Shown in pieces: positions 12,511 to 61,936 of a stretch of DNA of 64,000 nt. The number at the start of each line of letters is the position of its first letter. The first letter of the stretch is position 1. Both the position numbers and the translations under genes were made by a program. This stretch comes from Candidatus Methylomirabilis sp. (lineage in GTDB: Bacteria > Methylomirabilota > Methylomirabilia > Methylomirabilales > Methylomirabilaceae). The notes beneath the pieces are model-generated. The model saw only the letters and a list, made by a program, of their open reading frames with translations. It ran no database searches and was not told the DNA's origin. The stretch spans positions 1 to 64,000 of the forward strand of contig NZ_JAQUOY010000008.1 of the NCBI RefSeq assembly GCF_028716865.1, in the 5' to 3' direction.

Positions 12511-12602
12511 TCTAGGAGGGTCCGGGGATAGCGTTCAGCTCTTTCCGGAGGACAGAGGGTGGTCGGGCCGCCATCCGCGAGAAGCGGAGGCGGCTTTTTT
12601 AT
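12511..12602 (+). promoter_or_regulatory. Attenuator/riboswitch-like RNA leader, copy 1
   Basis: A first hairpin pairs TCCGGG (12521) with TCCGGA (12544). Then comes a 37-nt block (12557-12593) identical to the one at 35257-35293. In that block GGTGG can pair with CCGCC (anti-terminator), while CCGCC can instead pair with GGCGG in a strong hairpin CCGCC-A-TCCGC-GAGA-AGCGGA-GGCGG followed by CTTTTTT (terminator). Mutually exclusive pairing plus two copies argue for a regulatory leader. No gene starts directly behind this copy; the next is TetR 2, which has its own promoter. It may be an orphan copy or an sRNA. Confidence 0.6.
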
Positions 12603-12760
12603 TTCACGAAACATGAACATCGGGTTGCGGCGGCTGAACACCTCTCTTGTGTGCGTTATTTCGACGGCGTCAACTGACGGTTCTAGTCTATGGAATGGAG
12701 GCCCATCGTATTCTTGAAGAGGCGCCATACCCACCCGGAGATTGGCGTTGTAAGTCCACC

Positions 12761-35211: not shown

Positions 35212-35303
35212 TCCTAAGAGGTCCGGAGATGCGAGTGTCAATTTCCGGAGGATACTGGGTGGTCGGGCCGCCATCCGCGAGAAGCGGAGGCGGTTTTTTA
35301 TTT
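35212..35303 (+). promoter_or_regulatory. Attenuator/riboswitch-like RNA leader, copy 2 (before cytochrome c-nhaA)
   Basis: Same architecture as 12511-12602. TCCGGA (35222) pairs with TCCGGA (35244). The 37-nt block at 35257-35293 is identical and contains alternative GGTGG:CCGCC and CCGCC:GGCGG helices, and the terminator hairpin is followed by GTTTTTTATTTT. The loop of the first hairpin differs in sequence between copies while pairing is kept (G-U versus A-U). The next genes are a cytochrome and nhaA, so an ion-responsive leader of the kind known upstream of nhaA genes is a reasonable hypothesis. I cannot confirm a named class. Confidence 0.65.
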
Positions 35304-43676: not shown

Positions 43677-43922
43677 CTTCAGCAGGAGCGCTACCGATTC
43701 TGCTTAAACTCCAGTCCACTTGTACCGACACGTGTTTTTGCGCAGTTGAATGCGGCAGGCAGGCGGCAAAGGGGCACTTGGCTGAGTGACGTGGCTACAA
43801 CACCTTGAACCTGGCAGCAATCCTCTCAGTGGCGGGGACATGAGTTGCGGAATGCGTCGACCAACGGCCTCTGGAGTACTGTGAAGAGACAGAATCAAGA
43901 AGGTAGGATTGAGGTAGGCAAC

Positions 43923-46900
43923 TTGGATAAAGACTTCGCCCCTGGTGACGTGGTCGCGGGGCTGGACGCGTCCGAACTCGTCGAGATTCAGCGGGTCGCC
44001 CCCTTCGGCGGTAAGACGCTCCTTGAGGGAGTCGGGCTTCAGTCCCGCCGACTGGTGAAGCGCCCCTTGGCCACGGAAGAGCTTGCAGCACTCGTCAAGG
44101 TACGCGGCGGGCAGCACACGTTCAACGGCGATGCCAGCCTCTTCCTTCTCTGCGCCGAGGCAGAACGTATCCGCATCGCTCACCAGTTTGATCCGCTCTT
44201 CGCCGTCAACTCCAGCATCGTTGACCCACTCCCGCATCAAGTGGAGGCGGTCTATCGGTACCTCCTCCCCTTGCCGAGAATCCGTTTCCTGTTGGCCGAC
44301 GACACAGGAGCGGGTAAGACGATCATGACTGGGCTCTTGATCAAGGAGCTGCTATTCCGGGGAGTGCTTCAGAAGGTCCTGATCATTGTTCCAGGCGGCC
44401 TGACGAAGCAGTGGAAGGAAGAGGAGCTCCAAGAGAAGTTCGGGCTTTACGCACGGCTCGTCAACCGCGCGTCCTTCGAAGCAGAACCGGGCCAGTTCTC
44501 CCGGTATGAAGACGGCATCTTCGTCACGTCCATCGATTTCCTGGCCCGTAATGAAGGCTGTCTCAAGGCCGCCGCTGAAACCCAGTGGGATCTCGTGGTG
44601 GTCGACGAGGCCCATAAGCTCTCGGCCTACGAGTACGGCACGAAGTTGGAAGAGAGCGAGCGGTACAAGGCGGTGAAGGCGCTCACTCGCAAAACTGACC
44701 ACCTCCTGTTCCTTACGGCGACTCCGCACCGCGGAAGAAAGGACACGTTCCGCCGGCTACTCCTGCTTCTCGATGAGGACCTCTTCCAGAAGGACGAGCA
44801 TGTTGCCGACCGGGTACGCGAGCAGGCGGCACCCTACGGCGCATCCAGCGAAGAAAACCTCGACACCGAGCGCCCGATCAGCAAGGCGCGGAATCGATTC
44901 TTCCTTCGTCGCCTGAAAGAGGAGATGGTTGATTGGGACAACCAAGCGCTCTTCAAGAATCGCCATACGAAGACGACCGGCTATGATCTGACACCGGAGG
45001 AAAAGATCCTCTATAACGAGGTGACAAGCTACGTTCGCTCAAAGCGCAAGGAGGCCAAGGCGAAGAAGAACCGGAACGTCGAGTTGACCCTCATGGTCAT
45101 GCAGCGCCGCCTGGCCAGCAGCCTCTACGCCATCACGCGGACCCTTGATAACCGACTCCGGGCTCTGAATGAGGTCCTCTCCATACTCAGAGATCCCAGC
45201 CGTTCAGAGGCGGAGAAAAAGCGACTGTTCCGGGAGACTCCAGACCCAAGCGATCCGCGGGATATCACAGAATACGAGGACCTGACCGAGGAGGAACGCG
45301 AGCGGGTCGACCGGCGGATCTTCCGCCAGGTCCTAACGGATGATCCGAACAAGGTCGAGGAAGAACGCGACGAAGTCGAACGGCTCTTCCGGCTGGCCGA
45401 CAGCCTAAAGCACCACAAGGAGGCGAAGTTTGTCGAGCTTCTCACCGTCTTGGATTCCTCCGATGTGATCCGAGCAGAGGATGAAAAGCTCCTGATCTTT
45501 ACCGAACACCGCGACACGCTCAACAGCCTTGCCAAGCGCCTCGAGGGAAAGGGGTACACCGTCGCTACGATCCATGGCGGCATGGACGTGGATACGCGCA
45601 AACAGGCCCAGCGCACGTTTCGCGCGCGGGCCAAGATCATGGTCGCCACCGACGCGGCAGGTGAAGGCATTAACCTTCAGTTCTGTCGCTACCTCATCAA
45701 TTGGGACATCCCGTGGAATCCCAACAGACTTGAACAGCGGATGGGGCGCATCCACCGGTATGGCCAGGCCGATGACGTGTGGGTCTACAACTTGGTTGCC
45801 AGCAATACTCGGGAGGGATCGGTCCTCCAGAAGATCCTCTCGAAACTGGACATCATGCGCGAACAGATGGGGTCTGACCGAGTCTACGACGTGATCGACG
45901 AGTGGCTGGAGGATGTGCCGCTGGTACGACTGATTGAAAGTGCCATTGATGCGGACGATGAATCGGCGAGTTCCAGAGACACCGACGTTGCGCTGGCGGC
46001 GGCATCACGCGAGAGGGCCGAGCAGCTCATGGCTATCCAGAAGAAGATCTCGCTTGCTTCACGCCTCGATTTGAGATCCGCCCGCGAGCTGCGCGACGCA
46101 TCGGACGAGCGCCGACTTCAGCCATTGTTTATCCAGCGGTTCTTTGAACGTGCGTGGACGGCAAGTGGGGGCACCGTCCGTAAGGACGATCACTGTCCGG
46201 TCTGGCACATCGGCTCTACGCCAACCGCCCTGCTCGAACTCGCCAGGGAGCAGCGACAGGCTCTATCCGAGAACTACGGTACTCCCTTCGTGTTCGACAA
46301 GCAGCTCGTGAGCGTCGCGAGCAAAGTGCGTACCCCTGAGCGCACGAAGCTCATGGGACCCGGGCACCCGCTGTTCGATACCCTAATCGAGTGGGCGATT
46401 CGTGAGGCGCGTCAAGCCTTTGCCAAAGGGGCAACCCTCGTGGACCCCAATATCGCCAAGCCACAGCGAGTCTGGCTCGTCCGTTCAACCATTGAGGATG
46501 GACGTCGGCAATGGCGTCAGGATCGTCGTAAGCCACCGGCCCATGAGCGGCTGGCCATAGTGGTTCACGACCATATGGGTCTTCGCACGACCTCACCGTC
46601 GTACTTGCTCAACTGTACGGCTCCGGAGGCTGCCATCCCGGTTCCCGATGTGGTATCGAAGTCCGCCGAGGAGATTCAGGCATGGGCCTACGAGCAGATC
46701 ACCGAGCGGCAGCTCGACCAGGTGACAACTATCCGCACTGAGGAGTGCGACCTGCGCCGGGAATACCTGAACACGGCCTTCACGGATCTTATCCTCGACC
46801 TGCAGGGAGAACTGAACGACCTTCAGCAGGCACTACTGTACGGCGACGACGATGCTCAGGAACGTGAGCGACTTCAACAGCGAGTTGAAGATCTGAAGGC

Positions 46901-47453
46901 TCGGAAGGTGGAACGGCTCAAGGAGTTGGAGCTTATGATGAAGTTGACCGCCAACCTTCCCGATCTTCTGACGGAGGCTGTGATCGCCCCGGTTCCTGTG
47001 GCGACGGTGGAAAGCGAGGAGGAGGCGCCGGCGAAAGGCTTCCCGATGCGCCGCGACGACGAAGTCGAGGCCATCGCGATGGATGTGGCTATGCGCTACG
47101 AGCGCAGTCGTGGATGGACGCCCACAGACGTGAGCCGGGATGGAGAGCACTACGACGTTCGATCTGAGGGGCCGGGTGGCGAGAAACGGTTCATCGAGGT
47201 CAAAGGCCGAGCCCAGTCGGGCGCTATCATCCTGACGGGTCCAGAATTGGACAAGTTGGGTCAGCTCGGCGAGCGGGCTTGGCTCTACGTCATTACCTTC
47301 TGCAAGGGTGAGCGGCCGCGGTTACGGATTATCCAAGACCCAATTTCGAAGCTCACCCCGGAGATGCTGTACCGACAGATCCAGTACCTCATTGAAGAGA
47401 ACGACTGGGCGGGACAGGGGGTTGAAGTCGCACCGGACGGATGGTCGGAATGA
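43923..47453 (+). CDS. SNF2-type superfamily 2 helicase with C-terminal DUF3883 domain
   Basis: ~1176 residues. Walker A LADDTGAGKTIMTGLL (~125), DEAH box VVVDEAHKLS (~226), motif III FLTATPH, C-terminal lobe TDAAGEGINLQFCRYLINWD and motif VI QRMGRIHRYGQ (~606). Coiled-coil-rich middle, then DUF3883, a restriction-endonuclease-like fold with RFIEVKGRAQSGAIILTG (~1095), and a 46-residue tail RPRLRIIQDPISKL... Similar helicases occur in DISARM (DrmD-like) and in the COG1743/COG1483 defence clusters. Start uncertain: TTG 43923 has GAGG 8 nt upstream; TTG 43845 and GTG 43881 are alternatives. The tail sequence reappears twice downstream. Confidence 0.9.
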   Translation: MDKDFAPGDVVAGLDASELVEIQRVAPFGGKTLLEGVGLQSRRLVKRPLATEELAALVKVRGGQHTFNGDASLFLLCAEAERIRIAHQFDPLFAVNSSIVDPLPHQVEAVYRYLLPLPRIRFLLADDTGAGKTIMTGLLIKELLFRGVLQKVLIIVPGGLTKQWKEEELQEKFGLYARLVNRASFEAEPGQFSRYEDGIFVTSIDFLARNEGCLKAAAETQWDLVVVDEAHKLSAYEYGTKLEESERYKAVKALTRKTDHLLFLTATPHRGRKDTFRRLLLLLDEDLFQKDEHVADRVREQAAPYGASSEENLDTERPISKARNRFFLRRLKEEMVDWDNQALFKNRHTKTTGYDLTPEEKILYNEVTSYVRSKRKEAKAKKNRNVELTLMVMQRRLASSLYAITRTLDNRLRALNEVLSILRDPSRSEAEKKRLFRETPDPSDPRDITEYEDLTEEERERVDRRIFRQVLTDDPNKVEEERDEVERLFRLADSLKHHKEAKFVELLTVLDSSDVIRAEDEKLLIFTEHRDTLNSLAKRLEGKGYTVATIHGGMDVDTRKQAQRTFRARAKIMVATDAAGEGINLQFCRYLINWDIPWNPNRLEQRMGRIHRYGQADDVWVYNLVASNTREGSVLQKILSKLDIMREQMGSDRVYDVIDEWLEDVPLVRLIESAIDADDESASSRDTDVALAAASRERAEQLMAIQKKISLASRLDLRSARELRDASDERRLQPLFIQRFFERAWTASGGTVRKDDHCPVWHIGSTPTALLELAREQRQALSENYGTPFVFDKQLVSVASKVRTPERTKLMGPGHPLFDTLIEWAIREARQAFAKGATLVDPNIAKPQRVWLVRSTIEDGRRQWRQDRRKPPAHERLAIVVHDHMGLRTTSPSYLLNCTAPEAAIPVPDVVSKSAEEIQAWAYEQITERQLDQVTTIRTEECDLRREYLNTAFTDLILDLQGELNDLQQALLYGDDDAQERERLQQRVEDLKARKVERLKELELMMKLTANLPDLLTEAVIAPVPVATVESEEEAPAKGFPMRRDDEVEAIAMDVAMRYERSRGWTPTDVSRDGEHYDVRSEGPGGEKRFIEVKGRAQSGAIILTGPELDKLGQLGERAWLYVITFCKGERPRLRIIQDPISKLTPEMLYRQIQYLIEENDWAGQGVEVAPDGWSE
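47313..47450 (+). repeat. Helicase-tail repeat T1 (parent copy)
   Basis: Last 46 codons of the helicase (RPRLRIIQDPISKL, EMLYRQIQYLIEENDW). Related sequences occur at 48823-48945 (T2) and 50958-51086 (T3), keeping I-x-DPISKL-x2-EMLYRQ-x-Q-Y/F-LV/I at the protein level and long identical DNA stretches such as GAGATGCTGTACCG. Confidence 0.88.
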
Positions 47454-48814
47454 TCGAAGGATTCCTGGCCCGTGACGAGGGTAAGACGCTGGAGTTCAAG
47501 GAGAACTGCCGCCCGCTCCAGGGTATCGTGCGGACTGCCGTCGCCTTTGCCAACACTGCGGGTGGTACTATTGTCATCGGCGTGAAGGACAAAACGAAAG
47601 AGGTGATCGGCATCGCTGATCCTCTGCTGAACGAGGAGCGGCTGGCCAATGCTTTTGCTGATGGCATCCGCCCGCTGCTGGTTCCCGACATCCAAATCCA
47701 CGCCTGGCGAAAGCGCCAACTGCTTGTTGTGACGGTGCCGCATGCTGTGGGACCGTTTTACGTCCGCTCCGAAGGGTCTGAAGCCGGTGTCTATATCCGG
47801 CTCGGATCGACCAACCGCCCGGCGGGACCGGAATTGCTCGCAGAACTCCAACGCCTGGCCCGAAACACGTTCTTTGACGAGCAACCCTGCTCGGAAACGA
47901 ACTCGGACGATATTGACGTCCGAGCAGCGTCCGAGTTCTTCGCGGCCGTCTCCAGACCGCTGAGCCCGGCAAAACAGCGGTCCCTGGGGCTGCTGGTGGG
48001 ACAAGGTACACGAGCAGTGCCGAGTATCGGAGCCGTACTCCTCTTCGGCAAGACGCGGGGGCGCCTGTTCCCCTCGGCTACGATACGCTGCGCGCGATTC
48101 CTCGGGAAGGACACAGCCAAGTTCCTGGATCAAACCGAGATTGATGAGTATCTGCCGAAGTCCGTGGACAGCGCGGTGGCGTTCATCGAGCGCCACACGC
48201 GGCAGGGCATCGAGATTGGGCGCGTTCGACGGCGCGACGTGCCGGAGTACCCGGTCGAGGCGGTGCGCGAGGCGATCATCAATGCTATCGTCCACGCCGA
48301 CTACAGCATTGGCGGGGCCGGTACGAAGATCGCCATCTTCGACGACCGGATCGAGATCACGAACCCTGGCTTGCTCCCGTTTGGACTGACGCTGGAGGCC
48401 GCTCTGGCAGGTGTCTCACGCCTCCGCAACCGCGTGATTGGCCGAACGTTCCGCGAACTGGGACTCATCGAGCAGTGGGGCTCAGGTCTCGGACGGATCA
48501 CGGTCGCCTGCGCAAACGCCGGCCAGCCTGCCCCGCGATTCGAGGAACTGGGCACCAACTTCCGGGTCACCTTGTTCGGGGAGCGCGTGAAGGCTCCAGC
48601 GCAGCCGGAGTGGCAGTCTGAGTTGCTGGGGTACCTCGCGAAGAAAAATCGAATCTCCACTCGGGTGGCCGGAGAGTTGTGGAAGATTCCCGACCGTACG
48701 GCAAGAAGGCGCCTGCGCCGACTGGTTGATGACGGGCTGCTTGTCGAGGTTGGCAGCGGTCCCAAGGACCCGTACCGTGCGTACGTGTTGAGGGAAGAGA
48801 GGCGTGGCCGATGA
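47450..48814 (+). CDS. AlbA_2 (Schlafen-like) / HATPase_c_4 protein
   Basis: 454 residues. N-terminal AlbA_2 domain: TLEFKENCRPLQGIVRTAVAFANTAGG, of which LEFKEN and AFANTAGGTIVIGV are diagnostic. The central part ends with a GHKL-type fold: YPVEAVREAIINAIVHADYS and IEQWGSGLGRI. The C-terminus is a winged helix (ISTRVAGELWKIPDRTARRRLRRL). Often annotated as transcriptional regulators or RecG-like; the AlbA_2 fold occurs in nucleases of the Schlafen family. ATG 47450 overlaps the helicase stop (ATGA). Could be operon regulator or effector. Confidence 0.87.
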   Translation: MIEGFLARDEGKTLEFKENCRPLQGIVRTAVAFANTAGGTIVIGVKDKTKEVIGIADPLLNEERLANAFADGIRPLLVPDIQIHAWRKRQLLVVTVPHAVGPFYVRSEGSEAGVYIRLGSTNRPAGPELLAELQRLARNTFFDEQPCSETNSDDIDVRAASEFFAAVSRPLSPAKQRSLGLLVGQGTRAVPSIGAVLLFGKTRGRLFPSATIRCARFLGKDTAKFLDQTEIDEYLPKSVDSAVAFIERHTRQGIEIGRVRRRDVPEYPVEAVREAIINAIVHADYSIGGAGTKIAIFDDRIEITNPGLLPFGLTLEAALAGVSRLRNRVIGRTFRELGLIEQWGSGLGRITVACANAGQPAPRFEELGTNFRVTLFGERVKAPAQPEWQSELLGYLAKKNRISTRVAGELWKIPDRTARRRLRRLVDDGLLVEVGSGPKDPYRAYVLREERRGR

Positions 48815-48822
48815 GGAGAGGT

Positions 48823-48948
48823 ATGATCCACGATCCCATCTCGAAGCTCAACCCGGAGATGCTGTACCGGCAGTTGCAGTTCTTGGTTGACGAGAGCAAC
48901 TGGCAACGCTACGAGATCGAGGCAGGAAATGGCAAAGAACATTCATGA
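48823..48948 (+). CDS. 41-aa free-standing copy of the helicase tail (T2)
   Basis: ATG 48823 with RBS GAGGAGAGG starts a 41-codon frame: MIHDPISKLNPEMLYRQ, QFLVDESNWQRYEIEAG, ending NGKEHS. Residues 3-28 are homologous to the helicase C-terminus at 47313-47450. It begins 8 bp after the AlbA_2 gene and its 3' part overlaps the start of the HD gene. Either a scar of an exchanged or deleted helicase gene, or a real small protein. Conservation of frame and RBS favours translation, but function is unknown. Confidence 0.6.
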   Translation: MIHDPISKLNPEMLYRQLQFLVDESNWQRYEIEAGNGKEHS

Positions 48949-50296
48949 GATTCGGGACCCGATCCACGTATTTGTGAGGCTGGATTCACACGAGCGTCAG
49001 GTCCTTGACTCACGTCCGTTCCAGCGTCTTCGGCATATCCACCAGCTAGCGTTGTCTCACCTCGTATACCCGGGGTGCACACACAGGCGTTTCGAACACT
49101 CGCTCGGTGTTATGGAGCTAGCCGGTCGCGTCTTCGATGTCATTACACAACAAGACGCAATAACCGATGAGATTAAGCAACAGCTTCCCCAGATATCTTG
49201 TACGGATGCGCTTGCTTACTGGAAACGTGTTCTGCGGATGGCCGCTCTCTGTCATGACATTGGCCACTTGCCTTTCTCGCATACATCGGAAGACCTTCTC
49301 CCAGCGGGCTGGACTCACGAAATCCTGACGGCGGAGATCATCAAGAGTGCAGAGATGCAGGATATCTGGCAGAACATGACGCCACCGCTCCGGGCTGAGG
49401 ACATCGTCAAGCTAGCAATCGGCCCGAAGAAAGCTGCTAAGGTTGGGGTTAAGGCGTTCTCCGATTGGGAAGCAATTCTCGCTGAAATCATCGTTGGGGA
49501 TGCTTTCGGCGTGGACCGAATGGACTATCTTCTTCGAGATTCGTATCACGCTGGTGTAACCTATGGCAAGTTTGACCACTATCGCTTGATCGATACGTTG
49601 CGTATTCTTACACCGCCGCCAGTTAAGAAAACGGAGCGGATGGAGGCTGAAGGGCGATCAGCAGACGACAGCAAGGAAGTAATGCTGGGGATAGAGGTCG
49701 GTGGTCTACATTCAGCCGAGTCACTTCTGTTGGCGCGGTACTTTATGTTTATGCAGGTCTATTGCCACCCGGTACGCCGCATCTATGATATCCACCTACG
49801 GGATTTCCTTAAAGAGTGGCTACCGCACAGTACCTTCAGCACAGACATCGAACAACACTTAGCCATGACGGATATCGAAGTCATGCACGCTCTGCGCGGC
49901 GCTTGTTGTGACGAGGCAATTGCGGGCCATAAGCACGCAAAGCTCATCCTGCACCGGAAACACTTCAAGGTTCTATACGCAAGGAACCCAGACGACACAC
50001 AAAAGAATCCCGACGCAGTTGCCACCATTCACACAGCTGTTAGCGAGCGTTTTGGTGAAGCGAACGTCAGAATAGACACTTATACTCAGAGCGGAGGAGC
50101 ACCTGAGTTCCCAGTGCTAGAGAATGACGGACGTATTGTATCGTCACTGGCGGAGTCGCAACCCTTGAGGAACCTACCTGTTGTTGCAACGGGTTACGTC
50201 TTTATCAACCGGGATTGTCGAGAAAAGGCCAAGGTGTGGCTTGAAGGGAATCGTGACGATATCCTCGCGAAACAGGAGGGGGAGGAGGAAGGATGA
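48929..50296 (+). CDS. HD-domain phosphohydrolase (SAMHD1/dGTPase-like, COG1078)
   Basis: 455 residues. IHEIRDPIHVFVRLD and RLRHIHQLALSHLVYPGCTHRRFEHSLG include the first metal His (written here as HLVYPGCTHRRFEHS). Then MAALCHDIGHLPFSH holds the HD pair, and DAFGVDRMDYLLRDSYHAG the last Asp. Such enzymes hydrolyse dNTPs or other nucleotides; dNTP depletion is a known anti-phage strategy. ATG 48929 follows GGCAGGA. It is followed by a 4-bp overlap with the next gene, and the two form one cargo unit between tails T2 and T3. Confidence 0.9.
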   Translation: MAKNIHEIRDPIHVFVRLDSHERQVLDSRPFQRLRHIHQLALSHLVYPGCTHRRFEHSLGVMELAGRVFDVITQQDAITDEIKQQLPQISCTDALAYWKRVLRMAALCHDIGHLPFSHTSEDLLPAGWTHEILTAEIIKSAEMQDIWQNMTPPLRAEDIVKLAIGPKKAAKVGVKAFSDWEAILAEIIVGDAFGVDRMDYLLRDSYHAGVTYGKFDHYRLIDTLRILTPPPVKKTERMEAEGRSADDSKEVMLGIEVGGLHSAESLLLARYFMFMQVYCHPVRRIYDIHLRDFLKEWLPHSTFSTDIEQHLAMTDIEVMHALRGACCDEAIAGHKHAKLILHRKHFKVLYARNPDDTQKNPDAVATIHTAVSERFGEANVRIDTYTQSGGAPEFPVLENDGRIVSSLAESQPLRNLPVVATGYVFINRDCREKAKVWLEGNRDDILAKQEGEEEG

Positions 50297-50844
50297 GCAT
50301 GAAACCGAGGCAAAGGCAAGCCGTATTGTTGCAACTGGTCAATGGCATGAGTGAGCATGGTAGTTGGTGCGGAGAGACTCATGTGCAGAAGGCGGCCTAT
50401 TTTTTGAAAGAACTCACAGCAATTCCACTGGAACTGGATTTCATTCTCTACAAACATGGCCCGTTCTCATTCGATTTGCGGGATGAGCTAACGGCTATGC
50501 AGGCCGATGGGTTACTGCAAATGCGCATTCAACAGCCGCCATATGGTCCCTCGTTGAAGCCAACGAACAATGGAGAGGAGCTTATGCGCCGCTGGCCAGT
50601 GACGCTGAAGCGAAATCATAAGCGGATCGAGTTTGTGGCAAATCGTCTCGGTCCACTTAGAGTGACGGAGCTTGAGCGCCTAGCAACGGCGCTCTACGTC
50701 ACGAAGGAAGATCCTGGGATGGATGCTGAGACACGTGCCCAGCGCGTCAATGCGCTAAAACCACATGTATCTGTAATGGAAGCACGGACAGCGATTAATG
50801 CTATTGACGATATGATCAAGGAATGTCCAAGTACAATGGCATGA
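50293..50844 (+). CDS. YwgA/SocA-like (Panacea-type?) small protein
   Basis: 183 residues: THVQKAAYFLKELTAIPL, DFILYKHGPFSFDLRDELTAM, LKPTNNGEELMRRW. The 'KL/VQK..Y...F..Y.(H/Y)GPFS..L...l..l' pattern is that of YwgA and SocA/DUF4065-like proteins, which act as antitoxins or proteolytic adaptors in some systems. ATG overlaps the HD stop; its own stop overlaps the start of the 82-aa chimeric gene (ATGA). A role controlling the HD enzyme is a reasonable guess, not shown. Confidence 0.65.
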   Translation: MSMKPRQRQAVLLQLVNGMSEHGSWCGETHVQKAAYFLKELTAIPLELDFILYKHGPFSFDLRDELTAMQADGLLQMRIQQPPYGPSLKPTNNGEELMRRWPVTLKRNHKRIEFVANRLGPLRVTELERLATALYVTKEDPGMDAETRAQRVNALKPHVSVMEARTAINAIDDMIKECPSTMA

Positions 50845-51089
50845 ACAACGACTGTCCCCACCTGATCGAGGTGGCGCTTCCGATGCGGGAGATCTCGGCG
50901 GAGAGTGTGCATCAGAGGAAGGCGCAGCGTGGGCACATCTCGGCATTACACCTTTGGCGGCCGCGGTTGCGCATTATCCGGGACCCCATCTCGAAGCTCA
51001 ACCTGGAGATGCTGTACCGGCAAGTCCAGTACCTGGTTGAAGAGGAAGACCGGAGCCGACAGGGTATTGTCGTGCAGGAGGTGCCGTGA
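50841..51089 (+). CDS. 82-aa chimera: methylase N-terminus fused to helicase tail (T3)
   Basis: Residues 1-39 (CPHLIEVALPMREISAESV, GHISALHLW) are homologous to the first 39 residues of the DUF1156 methylase at 52868 (CPRLIEVALPIREISAESV, AHISHLHIW). Residues 40-82 (RPRLRIIRDPISKL, EMLYRQVQYLVEE) are homologous to the helicase C-terminus at 47313. ATG overlaps the preceding stop and the stop overlaps the GTG of the next gene, so it is fully built into the operon. A clean in-frame deletion product of a methylase...helicase gene set is the simplest origin; retention suggests it may be translated. Confidence 0.8.
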   Translation: MNNDCPHLIEVALPMREISAESVHQRKAQRGHISALHLWRPRLRIIRDPISKLNLEMLYRQVQYLVEEEDRSRQGIVVQEVP

Positions 51090-52249
51090 GCGAAAAGTCG
51101 AAAGACGTAAAGCGGTTTTCCAAGATTGTGCTTGAGAACTGGAAGAATTTTGCGCGTGTTGAAGTACCACTCCAGCGGCGCGTTTTTCTAGTGGGGCCGA
51201 ACGCTTCAGGAAAATCAAACTTTCTCGATGTATTCCGATTCCTGGGTCATCTGGCGTCTCCAGGCGGAGGTTTTCGAGAAGCCATCATGCGGCGCGGTGG
51301 CGTCAGCGCCATTCGGTGTCTGGCGGCGAGGCGCTATCCTGACGTTGCGGTCAGCGTAATCGTTGAGGCGGGCGACGGATCGGCGAGATGGGAATACGAA
51401 TTGAGGTTTTACCAAGATAATCAGCGCCGGCCGCTTGTCCGCAAGGAGAAAGTGATTCTGGACGGGAACGTACTGCTGAATCGCCCTGACGAAGATGATA
51501 AGAAAGACCCGGAGCGCTTAACCCAGACGCACTTGGAGCAGGTCAACGTGAACCGATCATTTCGAGAGATTGTGAGCTACTTCGAGTCGGTACGTTACCT
51601 GCACATCGTTCCGCAGCTCGTGCGGGAACCAGATCGCTCGGTGGGGCGACCCAACGACCCATATGGTGGAGACTTCCTGGAACAGTTGGCGAAAACGCAG
51701 GAGCGCACCAGAATGGCGCGTCTAAGGCGTATTCAGGATGCACTTCGTGTGGCCGTCCCGCAGCTCAAGGAGATCGAGTTGTGGCGTGATGCTCGGGGCA
51801 CACCGCATCTGCGCGGCAAGTATGAGCACTGGAGACCCCAAGGAGCATGGCAGACCGAGGAGCAGTTCTCGGACGGTACTCTACGACTGATGGGGCTTCT
51901 CTGGGCCGTGATGGAAGGTAGTGGTCCGGTCTTGCTTGAGGAGCCCGAGCTTTCACTCCATCCCGAAATCGTGCATTTTCTTCCGCAGATGTTCGCCCGC
52001 GTTCAACGACGAACGGGGAAACAGATCATCCTGAGCACCCACTCGCCGGACTTGCTCCGGGATGAGGGAATCGGGCTCGACGAGGTGCTATTGCTAAGCC
52101 CCAGCCTGGAGGGAACTGCGGTCAGGCCTGCAAGCGACTTCGACGAAATACGCCACCTTCTCGAGGGCGGGGTGACGCTTGCCGAGGCTGTGATCCCCAA
52201 GACCCGGCCGGAGAAGGCGGAGCAACTGTCGCTCTTTGGGGATCTTTGA
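51086..52249 (+). CDS. RecF/OLD-like AAA ATPase
   Basis: 387 residues, AAA_15/AAA_21 type. IVLENWKNFARVEVPL, Walker A VGPNASGKSNFLD (~36), signature-like FSDGTLRLMGLLWAV (~261), Walker B VLLEEPELSLHP (~283) and STHSPDLL (~317). ABC-type dimerising ATPases of this kind pair with TOPRIM nucleases in OLD, Gabija and PARIS-like systems; the next gene is such a partner. Start GTG 51086 overlaps the chimeric gene. Probably senses DNA ends or a phage trigger and activates the nuclease. Confidence 0.88.
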   Translation: MSEKSKDVKRFSKIVLENWKNFARVEVPLQRRVFLVGPNASGKSNFLDVFRFLGHLASPGGGFREAIMRRGGVSAIRCLAARRYPDVAVSVIVEAGDGSARWEYELRFYQDNQRRPLVRKEKVILDGNVLLNRPDEDDKKDPERLTQTHLEQVNVNRSFREIVSYFESVRYLHIVPQLVREPDRSVGRPNDPYGGDFLEQLAKTQERTRMARLRRIQDALRVAVPQLKEIELWRDARGTPHLRGKYEHWRPQGAWQTEEQFSDGTLRLMGLLWAVMEGSGPVLLEEPELSLHPEIVHFLPQMFARVQRRTGKQIILSTHSPDLLRDEGIGLDEVLLLSPSLEGTAVRPASDFDEIRHLLEGGVTLAEAVIPKTRPEKAEQLSLFGDL

Positions 52250-52250
52250 T

Positions 52251-52871
52251 ATGGCCGGGGAGTTCGTCGTCACGGCTGCGGTGGAGGGAATCGTTGATGA
52301 AGCAGTGGTGCGCACACTACTCAACCATGTCGGCGTGACTCCCGGAGATGTCCACGGAAAGAACGGCAAGGCGCATTTGTGTCAGAGGATTCCAGGCTAC
52401 AACAACGCGGCACGCCATGCGCCCTGGATCGTTCTCGTTGATCTTGACCGCGATGCCGACTGCGCACCACCATTGCGACGCGCTTGGCTGTCCCACCCCG
52501 CACCTTATATGTGCTTCCGCGTCGCGGTCCGGGCTGTGGAAGCATGGCTACTCGCGGATGGTGAGCGCATAGCCTCGTTTCTACGGGTGGCCAGGCAAAG
52601 GATTCCAACCGACCCGGAAGGCTTGGAGAATCCCAAAGAGACGATGGTCAACCTTGCGCTTCAATCGAGGCGACGGGACGTGCGAGAAGACATGGTTCCT
52701 CGTCCCGGCAGCGGCAGGTCGGTAGGTCCCGCCTACTCGTCACGACTCATCGAGTTCGCTGCGAATTACTGGCGCCCGCAAGTCGCCGTCGAGCAATGTG
52801 ACAGTTTGAGACGGGCTACCGAATGTTTGACGCGGCTCGCGCGAGAATGGTCATCACGGAAGAATGCATGA
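52251..52871 (+). CDS. TOPRIM-like (DUF4276-type) partner of the ATPase
   Basis: 206 residues. FVVTAAVEGIVDEAVVRTLL carries the conserved Glu of TOPRIM folds (written AAVEGIVDEAV), and WIVLVDLDRDADC the DxD; VRAVEAWLLADGE follows, as in DUF4276 proteins. Expected to cleave DNA or RNA, or to act as effector under control of the ATPase 1 bp upstream. ATG 52251 has GGGGA 8 nt before it. Its stop overlaps the methylase ATG. Confidence 0.72.
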   Translation: MAGEFVVTAAVEGIVDEAVVRTLLNHVGVTPGDVHGKNGKAHLCQRIPGYNNAARHAPWIVLVDLDRDADCAPPLRRAWLSHPAPYMCFRVAVRAVEAWLLADGERIASFLRVARQRIPTDPEGLENPKETMVNLALQSRRRDVREDMVPRPGSGRSVGPAYSSRLIEFAANYWRPQVAVEQCDSLRRATECLTRLAREWSSRKNA

Positions 52872-55834
52872 CCGAATTTTGCCCGCGCCTGATTGAGGTA
52901 GCGCTGCCGATTCGGGAGATCTCCGCTGAGAGCGTGCGGGACAAGAACATTCACCATGCCCACATCAGCCACTTGCACATCTGGTGGGCTCGCCGGCCCT
53001 TGGCGGCTTCACGCGCGGTGGTGTTCGCCTCTCTGGTTCCCGATCCGGACGATCCCCAGTGCCAGGCGGACTTCCGGGCGGCCGTCGAGCGCCATCTCAA
53101 AACGCATGTGCCCTCGGAACTGAAGCACTACCGGCGTGGCCGAGAAACCCGCCGGGACGAGGACCCTTACCGTCCCTACGACGGCATGCCGGATACGCTG
53201 CGGAACCGGCTCCTGATGTTCATCGCCAAGTGGTCCCCGGAGTCCCTGGCGTTCGATGCCGGAAAGCGACAGAACGCTGCCCCGCCTAAGGAACTCCTCG
53301 ACGACCGCTCGCTGGTGAAGTGGGAGACCTCTGATCCCGAGAACAATCAGGGTCAGGAAGTTCTTCGGATTGCTCGTGACCTCGTGAGGATCGCCCATGG
53401 CGGGAGGACGCCAAGCGTTCTGGACCCCTTTGCCGGCGGCGGGGCGATTCCGTTGGAAGTAGGACGGCTCGGTTGCCGGGCCCTCGCCAATGACTATAAC
53501 CCCGTCGCGCATCTGATCTTGCGGGCCACGTGTGAGTTCCCGCAGAAGTACGGCAAGCCAGGCAAGAGGAAGGCACTGGTCGAGGAGTTCGGTAAGAAGG
53601 TCGAGCGAGAAATCGACGTGCCGAACGTCCTCGTACATGACTTGGAGACATGGGCGAACTGGGTTCTGGAGAGCACGCGGCGGAAGATCGAGCATCTGTA
53701 CCCTGCTGGCAAGGACGGCCGCCCCGCCCTTGCCTACCTATGGGCGAGGACGGCTCCCTGCTCCAATCCTTCGTGTCAGGGCCAGATCCCGTTGATGCGT
53801 AGTCTTGTCGTGTGCAGCAAGGGCAGCAAAACCGCGCTCACGATGAACGTGGACAAGGCGCGAAAGGAGGTCTGCTTCGGCGTCGCCAAGGGTAAGGCCA
53901 TCAAGCGGACGGAGGGAACGAAGCGGGAACGGGGCCCTGCGATCTGCCCGTTCTGCGAGCAGCCGACCTCTGAAGGGGAGATTCGCGCGGCGGGCCGGGC
54001 TGGCAGAATGGGCGAACAGATGATGGCTGTAGTTGTCCAGGGAAAGGGCGAGAAGCACTATCGGGCGGTCGAGGACGCCGACCTCCGTGCGGTGATCACG
54101 GCGCAGACAATTCAGACGGCTGGCCCCGGGGAGTACGTAATCCCTGAGATCACGGGGCCGAACGCCTCGGCCGATGCCGGCGGGCACGCAAGCATTCGAG
54201 TGCAGCTCTACGGCTTTACCCGCTGGGGTCAGCTCTTCAGCCATCGCCAGCTCGTGGTCTTGGACCACTTGGTGAAGGGCCTTCATCAGGCCGTTGCGGA
54301 GATGGAGCGGACGATTCCAGACCTCGAGTATCGGCGTGCGGTTGCCACATACTTAGCTCTTTGGATCGACCGCATTGCCGCGTTCGGAAACACGTTTACG
54401 CGCTGGCGTGCAAGCCACGAGAAGAGTGAGACGCCATTCAGCGGTCAGTCGATCCCGATGATGTGGGACTACCCGGAGGTAAACCCGTTTGCTGACTCTT
54501 CCGGTACCGCCTCGACACAGCTCGCGTATATGCTCAGGGTTGTCTCCCATGAGCAGACGCACGATTTCGTGCCCACCCCTCGCGTTATCTTAGGGTCAGC
54601 GGCGAAGATGGGCGCTGTCGAGTCCTTGTCGTCCGACTGCGTTGTTACCGATCCTCCCTACGGAAACTCGATCGCGTACGCTGATCTTGCTGACTTCTTC
54701 TACGTGTGGTTGAAGCGCAGCCTCGGCGATCTATGGCCAGACCTGTTCCGTACACCCCAGACGCCGAAGGACGAAGAGACGACGAGCCACAAGCACCGCC
54801 ACAATGGTTCTCAAGAACGCGCCAACGTGTTCTACCGACGTCTCCTCACGGAGAGCTTCAGGGAAAGCAAGCGGGCGGCCAAGGATCCGAAACTCGTCAC
54901 GATCATGTTCGCGCACCAGTCCACGGATGCCTGGACTGCTTTGCTGTCCGCACTCTTTGACGCAGGGCTCTCGCCTGATGCGACGTGGCCGATTGCGACG
55001 GAGATGCTCAACACTGCTCTCGCTTTGGGCACCGCGTCGTTGGAGACATCGGTGACCGTTGCCTGCCGCCCGCGGGTTGTTGGGAGCGCAATTGCCTTCA
55101 AACAGGTTCGGGTGGAGATCGAAGATGTCGTGAAGCGCTCCGTGAAACGGTTCTGGTCTTACGGCTTTCGGGGCGCTGACCTTATCGTCGCCTGCTACGG
55201 CCCCGCAGTCGGTGTCTTCGGAAAGTACGAGCGGGTGGAGAAGGCCGACGGTACGCCCGTAGGGATTCCCGAACTTCTGGAGCTTGCTAAGCAGGCGGCA
55301 CGAGATGCCATCGCGGGTGAGTTCCGTGGCGATAATCTCTCCACGCTCTACTACGTCTGGGCCAATCTTTACGGCGCGGCGGAGCAAGCGTGGGATGACG
55401 CCAGGCTGGTCGTACAGATTGGGGGAGAAGAAGATAACGCCATGGAGATCGCCCGCGGGCACGGGATCTTTGTGGTGGATGGTTCCCGGTGCCGACTTGC
55501 CCTTCTCGAAGACCGTGCCAGCCGCCGAGGGCTGGGCATCGATCAGAACCCGCCCCATATCGATGCGCTCCATCGGAGCATGTTCTTCTGGAAGGAAGAA
55601 AAGCGCGGGGAGCTGGTCGATTATCTCGCCGAGCGTGACCTCTTGGAGGACGGCCCGTTCTGGAAACTGGCACAGGCGCTCTTCGAGGTCCTCCCCCGCG
55701 ATTTGGAGGACTGGAAACTGGTCAACGCCCTGCTCGGTGAGCGCCAGACACTGCGAGCTGAGGGCAAGCGTACGGCGTTCAGAAACGCGCAACGGGATCT
55801 GTCCTTCGACGAAGGAGGTGAAGAACGATCATGA
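52868..55834 (+). CDS. DUF1156 adenine-specific DNA methylase (COG1743)
   Basis: 988 residues. The N-terminal DUF1156 part (IEVALPIREISAESV, HIWWARRPLAASRAVV) is followed by SAM-binding motif I DPFAGGGAIPLE (~185), a zinc-finger-like insertion (CSNPSCQG..., CPFCEQPT), and catalytic DPPYGNSIAYADLADFF (~594), typical of N6-adenine methylases. Modifies host DNA or marks self in predicted anti-phage clusters with DUF499 and SNF2 helicases. ATG 52868 overlaps the preceding stop; the 3' end overlaps DUF499. Its first 39 codons are duplicated at 50841. Confidence 0.92.
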   Translation: MTEFCPRLIEVALPIREISAESVRDKNIHHAHISHLHIWWARRPLAASRAVVFASLVPDPDDPQCQADFRAAVERHLKTHVPSELKHYRRGRETRRDEDPYRPYDGMPDTLRNRLLMFIAKWSPESLAFDAGKRQNAAPPKELLDDRSLVKWETSDPENNQGQEVLRIARDLVRIAHGGRTPSVLDPFAGGGAIPLEVGRLGCRALANDYNPVAHLILRATCEFPQKYGKPGKRKALVEEFGKKVEREIDVPNVLVHDLETWANWVLESTRRKIEHLYPAGKDGRPALAYLWARTAPCSNPSCQGQIPLMRSLVVCSKGSKTALTMNVDKARKEVCFGVAKGKAIKRTEGTKRERGPAICPFCEQPTSEGEIRAAGRAGRMGEQMMAVVVQGKGEKHYRAVEDADLRAVITAQTIQTAGPGEYVIPEITGPNASADAGGHASIRVQLYGFTRWGQLFSHRQLVVLDHLVKGLHQAVAEMERTIPDLEYRRAVATYLALWIDRIAAFGNTFTRWRASHEKSETPFSGQSIPMMWDYPEVNPFADSSGTASTQLAYMLRVVSHEQTHDFVPTPRVILGSAAKMGAVESLSSDCVVTDPPYGNSIAYADLADFFYVWLKRSLGDLWPDLFRTPQTPKDEETTSHKHRHNGSQERANVFYRRLLTESFRESKRAAKDPKLVTIMFAHQSTDAWTALLSALFDAGLSPDATWPIATEMLNTALALGTASLETSVTVACRPRVVGSAIAFKQVRVEIEDVVKRSVKRFWSYGFRGADLIVACYGPAVGVFGKYERVEKADGTPVGIPELLELAKQAARDAIAGEFRGDNLSTLYYVWANLYGAAEQAWDDARLVVQIGGEEDNAMEIARGHGIFVVDGSRCRLALLEDRASRRGLGIDQNPPHIDALHRSMFFWKEEKRGELVDYLAERDLLEDGPFWKLAQALFEVLPRDLEDWKLVNALLGERQTLRAEGKRTAFRNAQRDLSFDEGGEERS

Positions 55835-58683
55835 GCGAAAACCTGAAACCCTGGTACGCCGTTGCGACACCTCACGAGGACATCCGCGAAGGACGTCTCG
55901 CAGAGGCCGTCTTCGCCGCGAACGTCTGGGCGGTCGTCCAGGGCACCGCGCCGGAGGTTTACCTTGACCCCGAGGAGTTCTTCCGCAAAACGTATCTGAC
56001 GACCGGACTGTCCACCGTCCTGAATCGGGTCGCGGGGGCGCTGCGACGCGGCGGGGAGACCGGAGACCGCATTATCAGTCTGCAGACTGCCTTCGGCGGC
56101 GGCAAAACGCACACGCTCGTTGCCTTGTGGCATCTGGCGAAACATGCGGATCGGTTGAAGGCGTCACCTCACGCGGAGGGACTTCGGAAGGCCGTCGGCG
56201 GGCGACTGCCGGAGAAGGTGAAAGGCGTTGCCGTCTTTACGAACCAGACCTGCGATGCCACCCAGGGACGTAAGGCCCCAGAAGGCATTCACCTACGCAC
56301 GTTGTGGGGAGAGTTGGCGTTCCAGCTTGGTGGAAAGGCTCTCTACGAACGTGTGCGGGCGAACGATGAGAGCCAGCGCGTGCCGCAGGGGCTCTTCTTC
56401 GAGGTTCTGCAGGCCGCTTCCCCGTGCCTGATCCTGCTCGACGAGTTGGCGGACTACTGCGTGGGGGCGGCGGCGGTACCGGTCGGCGATACAAGCCTGG
56501 CGGATCAGACCGTCTCCTTTATCCAGCAACTGACCGAGTCCGTGCAGCAAGTCCCGGGCGCGGTCGTGGTCGCCACGCTGCCGGCGAGCAAGTACGAGGT
56601 CGCCCAGAGTGAGAAAGGACAGGAGGCCTTCGTAACGCTGGAGAAGCGCTTCCAGCGCCTCGGAGCCGACATCAAACCGGTCTCCGACGAGGAAATCTAC
56701 GACGTCGTCCGCGCTCGTCTGTTCGAGTCCATCGCGCCAGACAGCGAGTCGGACTATCCGAAGAAGGTCGCCCAGGTCTATCAGGGGATGTACGCGGCCC
56801 ACGCCGGAGAGGTGCCCTCGGAGGTCGCGAGGAACACGTACCGCGAGCAGCTCCAGCGGGCTTATCCATTTCATCCGCTGCTCATCGATGCGCTGTATAC
56901 CCGCTGGGGCAGCCATCCTGACTTTCAGCGAACGCGGGGCGTATTGCGACTGCTCGCGAGTATCGTCGGCGACCTCTGGAAGCGCCGCCAGGGGAATACC
57001 GAAACGCAGCACTTAATCCAGCCGTGTCATGTCCATTGGTCCGTCGATGCTCTGCAGGCGGCTCTGACACGCCTATGGGGGCCGCCGTACCAATCCGTTG
57101 CCGCTGCAGATGTGATTGGGGAGCGGTCGAATGCCGGTATCTTCGATGAGGAGCGTGGCGGCGACTATCGGAGCGAGGCTATTGGGCAAGGGCTGGCATC
57201 CGCCATACTCCTTGGCTCCTTCGGCGGTCAGGGCGGTCGGAGCGGGTTTAGCTCCAAGGATCTGAAACTGGCGTGCTCCCGGCATGGTCTGAACTGGAAC
57301 TATGTCGATGGGGCCTTGCTGGAGTTGGAGAACCGCAGCTTCTACCTCCACACGACTTCGGCCGGAAGCCTGGGTAAACGCTATTGGTTCGGTACGAAAC
57401 CCGCACTCACCATGTTGGTGGTTCAGTACCGCCAGCAGATGGCCAAGGAGAACTTCGAGGAAGAGATCCTGGAAGACCTGCGGGCCGAGGCACAGAAGGG
57501 CGCATTGGCTGGGGCCACATGGCGTGTGATCGTCAACCCAGCGAAGGATCTGCCGGAGCAGAAGTCGCTGACCCTTCTGATTTTACCGCCGTCGCTGGCC
57601 TGGGACGAGAACGGGGGTACCAAGGAGGCGATCCGTGAACATGTCAAGTCGATCAGTCTCCGGTGCGGAGCAAAGGATCGCATCTATCGTAACACCCTTC
57701 TCTTTCTGCTGGGAACTGTTCGGGGGCTCAATAAGCTGCGGCAAGTCCATCGAGAGTGGACAGCCCTGGATGGGGTACGGACGGACTACTGGGGACAGCT
57801 TGACGAAGAGCAACGCGAGGATCTCGGGAGGCGTCTGGACGCAGCACGGCGGGCTACCATGGAGGCGCTGGGTCCCGCGTACACGGTTGCTCTGCGAGTA
57901 CGCGGACACGAGGTAGAGGCGTGTTCGCTTTCTGATGCGCGGCGTACCTTGCAGGAACACCTCGGCTATCTGTGGACGACGCTCGTCGAGGATGAGGAAT
58001 GGATTCTGCGAAGCGTCGGCTCGGTGACGTTGGAGAGTACGGGCCTGATCCCGAAGGAAGGCGGATTACGATTGAAGGATGCTGTTGAGGCCTTCCTGCG
58101 GTTTACCGACAAGCCGATGGTCGCGACTAGGGAAGCGGTGACGACCGGGCTCGCGCAAGCCTGCGCTGATGGACTGGTAGGCGTCGGTCGTGGTGGGAGC
58201 CTCTCGACGCTCCTCGCCCGGTACTGCAAGGAATCGGTCTCACTGGACCCGAGCGAGGATGGTCTCTGGATCATCCCGCCGTTTACACCGGAGCCGGCGA
58301 AGTATCCAGAGAGCGCAGAGGCTACAGGCGCCAGAGTCGGTACCGGAGAATCTGGTGCTATAGGAGGAATAAGCCCAGACGCGGCCAGCAGGGACACCTC
58401 GGGAACGGCCATCGCGGCGAAGGGCGGGGTCAAGAGCACCGTTCGGCGGTTCGTTGTCCGCGGTAACGTTCCGATCGAAAACTGGGGGGAGCTCTTCCGA
58501 TGCTTCGTCGGGCCTGCTGCGCGGATGAACCTCAAGAAGCTCCACTTGGGCGTGCAGTTCGAAATGGAGCTTCCTGAGGGAGGGACGTTGAGCGAGAACG
58601 ATCCGGCATTGAAGGCGATGAAGGAAGCCGCACGGCAACTCGGACTTGCATTAGAAGTATTGGAGGCCGAATTTGATAGGTAG
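55831..58683 (+). CDS. DUF499 AAA+ ATPase (COG1483)
   Basis: 950 residues. Walker A TAFGGGKTHTLVALW (~86), Walker B CLILLDELADYC (~201), and VVVATLPASKYE; the large C-terminal part is helical with a likely winged helix and the final RRFVVRGNVPIENWGELFR. DUF499 proteins accompany DUF1156 methylases in predicted defence systems, as BREX BrxC-like ATPases do in BREX. Start ATG overlaps the methylase stop. Last gene of the operon; its stop codon sits inside a hairpin. Confidence 0.9.
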   Translation: MSENLKPWYAVATPHEDIREGRLAEAVFAANVWAVVQGTAPEVYLDPEEFFRKTYLTTGLSTVLNRVAGALRRGGETGDRIISLQTAFGGGKTHTLVALWHLAKHADRLKASPHAEGLRKAVGGRLPEKVKGVAVFTNQTCDATQGRKAPEGIHLRTLWGELAFQLGGKALYERVRANDESQRVPQGLFFEVLQAASPCLILLDELADYCVGAAAVPVGDTSLADQTVSFIQQLTESVQQVPGAVVVATLPASKYEVAQSEKGQEAFVTLEKRFQRLGADIKPVSDEEIYDVVRARLFESIAPDSESDYPKKVAQVYQGMYAAHAGEVPSEVARNTYREQLQRAYPFHPLLIDALYTRWGSHPDFQRTRGVLRLLASIVGDLWKRRQGNTETQHLIQPCHVHWSVDALQAALTRLWGPPYQSVAAADVIGERSNAGIFDEERGGDYRSEAIGQGLASAILLGSFGGQGGRSGFSSKDLKLACSRHGLNWNYVDGALLELENRSFYLHTTSAGSLGKRYWFGTKPALTMLVVQYRQQMAKENFEEEILEDLRAEAQKGALAGATWRVIVNPAKDLPEQKSLTLLILPPSLAWDENGGTKEAIREHVKSISLRCGAKDRIYRNTLLFLLGTVRGLNKLRQVHREWTALDGVRTDYWGQLDEEQREDLGRRLDAARRATMEALGPAYTVALRVRGHEVEACSLSDARRTLQEHLGYLWTTLVEDEEWILRSVGSVTLESTGLIPKEGGLRLKDAVEAFLRFTDKPMVATREAVTTGLAQACADGLVGVGRGGSLSTLLARYCKESVSLDPSEDGLWIIPPFTPEPAKYPESAEATGARVGTGESGAIGGISPDAASRDTSGTAIAAKGGVKSTVRRFVVRGNVPIENWGELFRCFVGPAARMNLKKLHLGVQFEMELPEGGTLSENDPALKAMKEAARQLGLALEVLEAEFDR

Positions 58684-61282: not shown

Positions 61283-61290
61283 GACCATCA

Positions 61291-61324
61291 CCTCCTTTCA
61301 CCAGCCCAACAGACCCGATCCCAT
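61291..61324 (-). promoter_or_regulatory. Shared leader block, copy 1 (before the RHH gene)
   Basis: On the minus strand ATGGGATCGGGTCTGTTG (61324-61307) is followed within ~10 nt by AAAGGAGG. The identical 18-mer at the same distance from the RBS precedes the radC-like gene (61936-61904). Possibly a common operator or translational leader. Confidence 0.55.
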
Positions 61325-61894: not shown

Positions 61895-61903
61895 GCCTCC
61901 TCA

Positions 61904-61936
61904 CCTCCTTTCACCCCACAACAGACCCGATCCCAT
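61904..61936 (-). promoter_or_regulatory. Shared leader block, copy 2 (before radC)
   Basis: ATGGGATCGGGTCTGTTG (61936-61919) followed by AAAGGAGG (61911-61904), as in copy 1 at 61324-61291. Confidence 0.55.

Follow-up and report, generated by a model that had tools for sequence, protein, structure and literature searches.

A small helicase-methylase chimera in a Hma defence operon is very probably a recombination seam

Is the 82-aa open reading frame (ORF) at positions 50841-51089 of the window, the 64,000-nucleotide stretch of a Candidatus Methylomirabilis contig analysed here, a gene selected for its product, or a trace of how its operon acquired new modules? The ORF joins, in frame, about 39 residues from the start of HmaB, a DUF1156 methylase, to about 43 residues from the end of HmaA, a DUF3883 helicase. 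Such a fusion of methylase start and helicase end had been proposed in a first-pass annotation, and its composition and coordinates proved exact when checked by protein alignment, DNA alignment and Pfam. The evidence collected here argues strongly that the ORF is a recombination seam, or scar, and not a gene maintained for its protein.

The surrounding operon was identified by PADLOC models as a Hma system with HmaA, HmaB and HmaC contiguous on one strand (+). The gene order is hmaA, an AlbA gene, a copy of the hmaA tail, an HD gene, the gene of a 183-aa protein, the chimera of hmaB head and hmaA tail, HEC-01A, HEC-01B, hmaB and hmaC. The SNF2/DUF3883 helicase gene hmaA (43845-47453; PADLOC HmaA, E 2e-189) contributes the repeated tail, which corresponds to its last ~40 codons (47313-47450). 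Cargo 1 (47450-48814), ATGA-coupled to hmaA, encodes a protein with SLFN_AlbA_2 and HATPase_c_4 domains in Pfam. It is followed by a small ORF (48811-48949), a tail-only seam recognized by its similarity to the hmaA 3' end, and by cargo 2, which comprises an HD-domain protein (HD and HD_assoc_2 in Pfam; 48929-50296) and the 183-aa protein (50293-50844), for which PADLOC reports weak similarity to DarG/PDC-M19A models and no Pfam family was found. Beyond the chimera, both HEC-01A (an AAA_21 ATPase; 51086-52249; PADLOC E 1e-162) and HEC-01B (52245-52871, start codon uncertain; E 3e-67) are embedded between hmaA and hmaB, directly before the latter. The operon ends with an intact hmaB, encoding the DUF1156 DNA methylase (52868-55834; E 4e-126), and hmaC, encoding a DUF499 ATPase (55831-58683; E 6e-131). 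Individual cargo modules of the window are also found in simpler operons: locus L062 has the order hmaA, HEC-01A, HEC-01B, hmaB, and L064 the order hmaA, AlbA, hmaB. The L064 AlbA protein is 78.6% identical to cargo 1 and directly follows hmaA with the same ATGA junction. The HEC-01A protein of the window shares 76-79% of its amino acids with those of L037, L043 and L050, whereas the hmaB products of these loci are just ~32% identical to that of the window, which indicates that cargo moves between Hma types.

Both parts of the chimera show significant similarity to their parents at the protein and the DNA level. In comparisons within the window, residues 1-42 share 59.5% amino acid identity with the beginning of HmaB at 52868 (E 7e-12), and residues 40-78 share 71.8% with the final part of HmaA at 47313-47429 (E 7e-15). 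At the DNA level, 50853-50910 is 82.8% identical to 52880-52937 over 58 bp, and 50957-51064 is 81.5% identical to 47312-47419 over 108 bp. The head, hmaB codons 1-39, occupies 50841-50957, and the tail 50958-51089, as assigned by sequence match; for the head, Pfam adds a DUF1156 hit on residues 12-45 of the chimera (29.0 bits, cut-off 24). The ORF starts with an ATGA at 50841-50844 that overlaps the stop of the preceding gene and ends in a GTGA that forms a 4-bp overlap with the HEC-01A start at 51086, so that the previously noted stop/start overlaps are present at both flanks. Identity between the head and the resident hmaB DNA is unevenly distributed, with 82% over the first 17 codons followed by 52% over 14 codons. 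As the close match is limited to the first half, the head does not represent a recent duplicate of the present-day hmaB. No good match for the second half was found among the sampled hmaB genes; its last 17 codons are best matched by an L038-type hmaB (37/51 versus 29/51 for the window's own hmaB). The head may be a mosaic of two hmaB types, but both motifs are combined in lineages such as L108 and L065. The second half of the head lies within 50841-50957 (HQRKAQRGHISALHLW) and has ~52% DNA identity to the resident hmaB.

The chimera is accompanied by an additional copy of the HmaA end that was missed in the first-pass annotation. Located between the genes of the AlbA and HD proteins, this small ORF (48811-48949) is ATGA-coupled to cargo 1 and shares ~21 bp with the beginning of the HD gene. 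Its homology to the hmaA end spans 48823-48903, with 80% DNA identity to hmaA itself and 85% to the tail of the chimera, and its pN/pS is raised.

Whether such gene-end copies are a general feature of Hma operons was addressed by a survey of hmaA-hmaB slots. Short stand-alone HmaB heads had already emerged when 95 genomes of the window's phylum were initially searched with a HmaB model. One row of the head profile (A1), number 12, had been completed manually; the local HMM was built without this row, whereas the profile used for genome searches included it. An alignment (A3) that placed heads over tails was not used. From 142 collected loci, 88 carry hmaA and hmaB on one strand, and the gap between the two genes ranges from none, in ~25% of the loci, to 7.2 kb. 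For the 62 loci whose slot measures 250 bp or more (140 kb of slot in total), 50-aa tiles of each locus's own HmaA and HmaB were searched against the slot. Seven loci contain a further copy of the last 50 aa of HmaA there, three a copy of the penultimate HmaA tile and four a copy of the first 50 aa of HmaB, and the 29 other tiles yielded only the continuation of a relic in L068 and one low-complexity artefact. Across these 62 loci, the duplications are confined to the two slot-facing gene ends. All independent seams touch an end tile (10/10; p ~6e-7 even if four tiles are allowed for each). Additional seams, located outside the tile-test set or below its threshold, are present in L037, L059, L050 and L099. 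Short head matches in L067/L079, L048, L070 (2329-2449), L077 and L085-L087 were left out as frameshifts or contig ends, and solitary heads lacking a downstream hmaB (L035, L036, L039, L072-L076) were not counted as seams.

Fourteen seams could be compared for integrity; eight are open and coupled to the next gene, and six are broken. Decay is seen in L050, L051, L117 and L068. L050 shares with L037 and L043 the seam that precedes HEC-01A, but its copy lacks the start, is shortened and has gained stops, beside an intact HEC-01A gene. The seam of L187 has undergone an internal deletion that keeps the reading frame. The breakpoints within hmaB first seemed to cluster at residues 36-42, and site-specific integration at the HISTLHIW codons was considered; later breakpoints at residues ~11, 25, 140 and 185 weakened this idea. 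Two further observations stem from the same set of loci. A small HTH-like gene of L043 (7847-8182) starts with the first ~11 hmaB codons (VIPKDCKRLAE...), fused in frame; here a cargo gene may owe a new N-terminus to an insertion seam. L137 (G710:C92, 132860 and 136173) contains two HmaB-type heads with long frames, 3.3 kb apart on one strand.

A search for the same chimera elsewhere had been suggested, and two further fusions of hmaB head and hmaA tail were detected, in L038, from the same genus as the window, and in L068, from a member of the Chloroflexota. In L038 the order is hmaA, an ATPase gene, the head-tail chimera, a gene for a 558-aa protein and hmaB. Its head likewise ends at HISTLHIW, and its tail is 79% identical to the hmaA of L046, with the hmaA of L038 itself ranking lower. 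In L068 (G514:C10), ~185 codons of hmaB head are fused in the same frame to a hmaA tail and contain, as a unit, two in-frame stops. This relic tail is 90% identical to L109 and 71% to the L068 hmaA, and the hmaA bodies of the two loci are 95% identical. L109 is the matching locus without the insert: the left flanks agree (92.6%) up to near the hmaA end, and the right flanks (89.6%) from inside the hmaA tail, across the old cargo and on into hmaB. Between these aligned blocks, L068 has an extra ~3.5 kb, with 144 bp of the hmaA end on both sides, that consists of SIR2 (PADLOC E 1.5e-138) and HerA (E 8.9e-222) followed by a hmaB head. The comparison indicates that a defence module followed by a hmaB start entered the operon at the 3' end of hmaA, pushing the old tail downstream and thereby forming the chimera. 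The two loci come close to a before-and-after picture of an insertion; for the window itself, no pre-insertion relative with equal flanks was found. In L109, the following gene already overlaps the old tail with its start, and this overlap is the one kept to the right of the L068 seam; couplings beside such chimeras are therefore no sign of selection.

These data fit a model in which the hmaA-hmaB slot would take up accessory defence modules that arrive on the DNA of another Hma operon, with its hmaA end in front or its hmaB start behind. Homology with the resident hmaA or hmaB would allow uptake of one end of the incoming DNA, and the other would be joined without long homology. The old cargo would stay, and the join would be marked by a fragment of the hmaB head, of the hmaA tail or of the two in fusion. 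The overlaps of the window's chimera would be those already held by a pair of the 183-aa gene and hmaB and a pair of hmaA and HEC-01A; they were probably inherited from parent operons, and the seam would be translated only incidentally. The molecular mechanism could be homology-facilitated illegitimate recombination or the crossover of a circular fragment; integration of such a circle through a single crossover in the tail would yield an identical product. Under this model, the window would hold three modules, with the hmaA tail copy between AlbA and the pair of HD and 183-aa genes, and the head-tail chimera between that pair and HEC-01A/B; the order in which they entered is likewise inferred.

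Several observations count against a scar and have to be weighed together with the other explanations of the chimera. Chance similarity or an assembly error can practically be dismissed. The window does stem from a draft assembly of 53 contigs, but the E-values of the two parts (of the order of 1e-12 and 1e-15) oppose chance, the repeats are just 80-85% identical and hence too diverged to confuse an assembler, and the recurrence of independent seams in other genomes refutes both. The idea that the ORF encodes a translated decoy or adaptor carrying the docking ends of HmaA and HmaB is very unlikely to hold. Its open frame is coupled on both sides, its first half scores above the Pfam cut-off for DUF1156 and its tail retains conserved core residues. 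The chimera's tail has pN/pS values of 0.17-0.32 against intact tails, which overlap the range of intact genes and count against a scar, although the low values may be ancestral. Against a selected protein stand the differing content of comparable seams, of which 6/14 are broken, the decay of the L037/L043-type seam in L050 beside an intact HEC-01A, the two stops in the L068 chimera and the outcome of AlphaFold, which gave no confident fold (pLDDT 53, pTM 0.30) with an alignment (A2) that contains one out-of-frame row (L057). Moreover, no full-length relative of the 82-aa protein beyond the chimera itself was found in 784 genomes (its own and 783 from two further phyla), in 72,556 plasmids, which yielded only DUF1156 heads, or among viral contigs. 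The search for the chimera elsewhere returned chimeras of the same kind in L038 and L068 and no full-length ortholog, and with overlaps that were probably inherited, the decoy or adaptor role is not supported.

A seam could also be kept open as a translational coupler from upstream to downstream cargo, with the frame rather than the sequence under selection. This is conceivable, if doubtful, and it draws on the same facts that weigh against a scar: 8/14 seams are open and end in ATGA, GTGA or TAATG on the next gene, more than expected for pure junk of great age, and all three head-tail joints are in frame (chance 1/27), as is L187 after its internal deletion. Six of the 14 seams are nevertheless broken while the downstream gene persists, couplings of this type already exist in parent-type operons (L109; the ATGA between hmaA and AlbA in L064), and HEC-01A has a ribosome-binding-like sequence of its own, CAGGAGG, before 51086. 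The poor match of the head's second half to every sampled hmaB is a further point against a scar. The first-pass annotation had derived the chimera from a second methylase-to-helicase cassette that collapsed in place, which would call for a tandem pair of complete Hma operons and a single large deletion spanning everything between the beginning of the first hmaB and the 3' end of the second hmaA. The chimera does imply a past contribution of DNA from a second Hma operon; a whole operon and a single deletion were not established, and this route appears rather improbable. It would give the same end product, genomes with two nearby hmaB-type genes exist (136173 and 132860 in G710:C92; G554:C4), and the tail in L038 is foreign, as a second operon would supply. 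It also needs a larger ancestral structure and more steps, and the deletion must land near both outer ends, as the surviving heads comprise at most ~185 of ~990 codons and the tails at most ~85 of ~1200. By itself it offers no explanation for remnants that are always short outer ends. In L068, the same type of chimera came with a 3.5-kb segment in which only a cargo module and a hmaB head were added, and the comparison with L109 gave no sign of a second complete operon.

The Hma defence system and its Hma-embedded candidates (HEC) are known from PMC8565338 and PMC12988326, the latter citing Payne et al. (2024; bioRxiv 10.1101/2024.01.29.577857), the primary preprint on embedding, and PMC12839542 views Hma as DUF499-centred BREX-related systems. 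The window resembles these systems in its complete set of hmaA, hmaB and hmaC with embedded HEC-01A/B, all of which give good model scores. In the passages of PMC8565338, PMC12988326 and PMC12839542 consulted, no mention of gene-end scars between embedded modules was found. The embedding of defence genes in Hma operons has served to discover new defence genes, and in these texts the route of entry is not described. Serial displacement is known from Rhs/CDI orphan modules, in which new modules enter beside a conserved gene and displaced ones keep a fragment of that gene (PMC6336857 and references therein). In Hma slots, too, displaced modules carry a fragment of the neighbouring core gene on the same strand, and, as the tile test revealed, this fragment is always derived from the end next to the variable region, as in displacement of the Rhs/CDI/T6SS type. 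In Rhs/CDI, however, the toxin end of one gene and an immunity gene are displaced, whereas Hma slots accommodate whole accessory defence genes between two core genes, with fragments of either or both. For the effector-immunity arrays of the Vibrio cholerae T6SS, sequential insertion by homology-facilitated illegitimate recombination with retention of old genes and remnants has been proposed (PMC5361080). There, the insertion replaces the effector; in Hma operons the core gene is restored, the cargo is kept and no effector-immunity logic applies. The window's cargo (AlbA/HATPase, HD, AAA_21 and HEC-01B) contains no polymorphic toxin/immunity pair. By analogy with these arrays and with orphan cdi modules, the Hma slot would use a homologous anchor at one end and an illegitimate join at the other. 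SIR2-HerA, identified by PADLOC as inserted cargo in L068 and not in the window, illustrates the kind of DNA that the slot accepts.

If the chimera is a scar, seams of this type are a readable trace that marks module borders and makes the order and mechanism of insertion testable. They would show that modules such as SIR2-HerA enter on the DNA of other Hma operons, and similar scars in the same slot of related operons would record how an operon collected its modules. They also call for caution in annotation, as a small ORF in an operon of this kind may be a scar, for which the label DUF1156 protein should be avoided. More speculatively, the gene-end copies might serve as short same-strand direct repeats that turn the Hma slot into a loss-and-gain array, in which single defence modules are removed or exchanged by recombination between tail or head copies, hmaA and hmaB are restored, and frame-keeping seams keep the array translated.

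Other repeats of the window lie apart from the Hma genes. A diverged duplicated block (73-76%) retains the same order in both copies (6775-7465/12755-13450, 8481-8634/13771-13924 and 9329-9507/14154-14337) and includes two TetR-family regulators. Two short direct repeats are located far from the Hma operon, one of 63 bp and 94% identity (12542-12604 and 35242-35303) and one of 37 bp and 92% identity (61288-61324 and 61901-61936).
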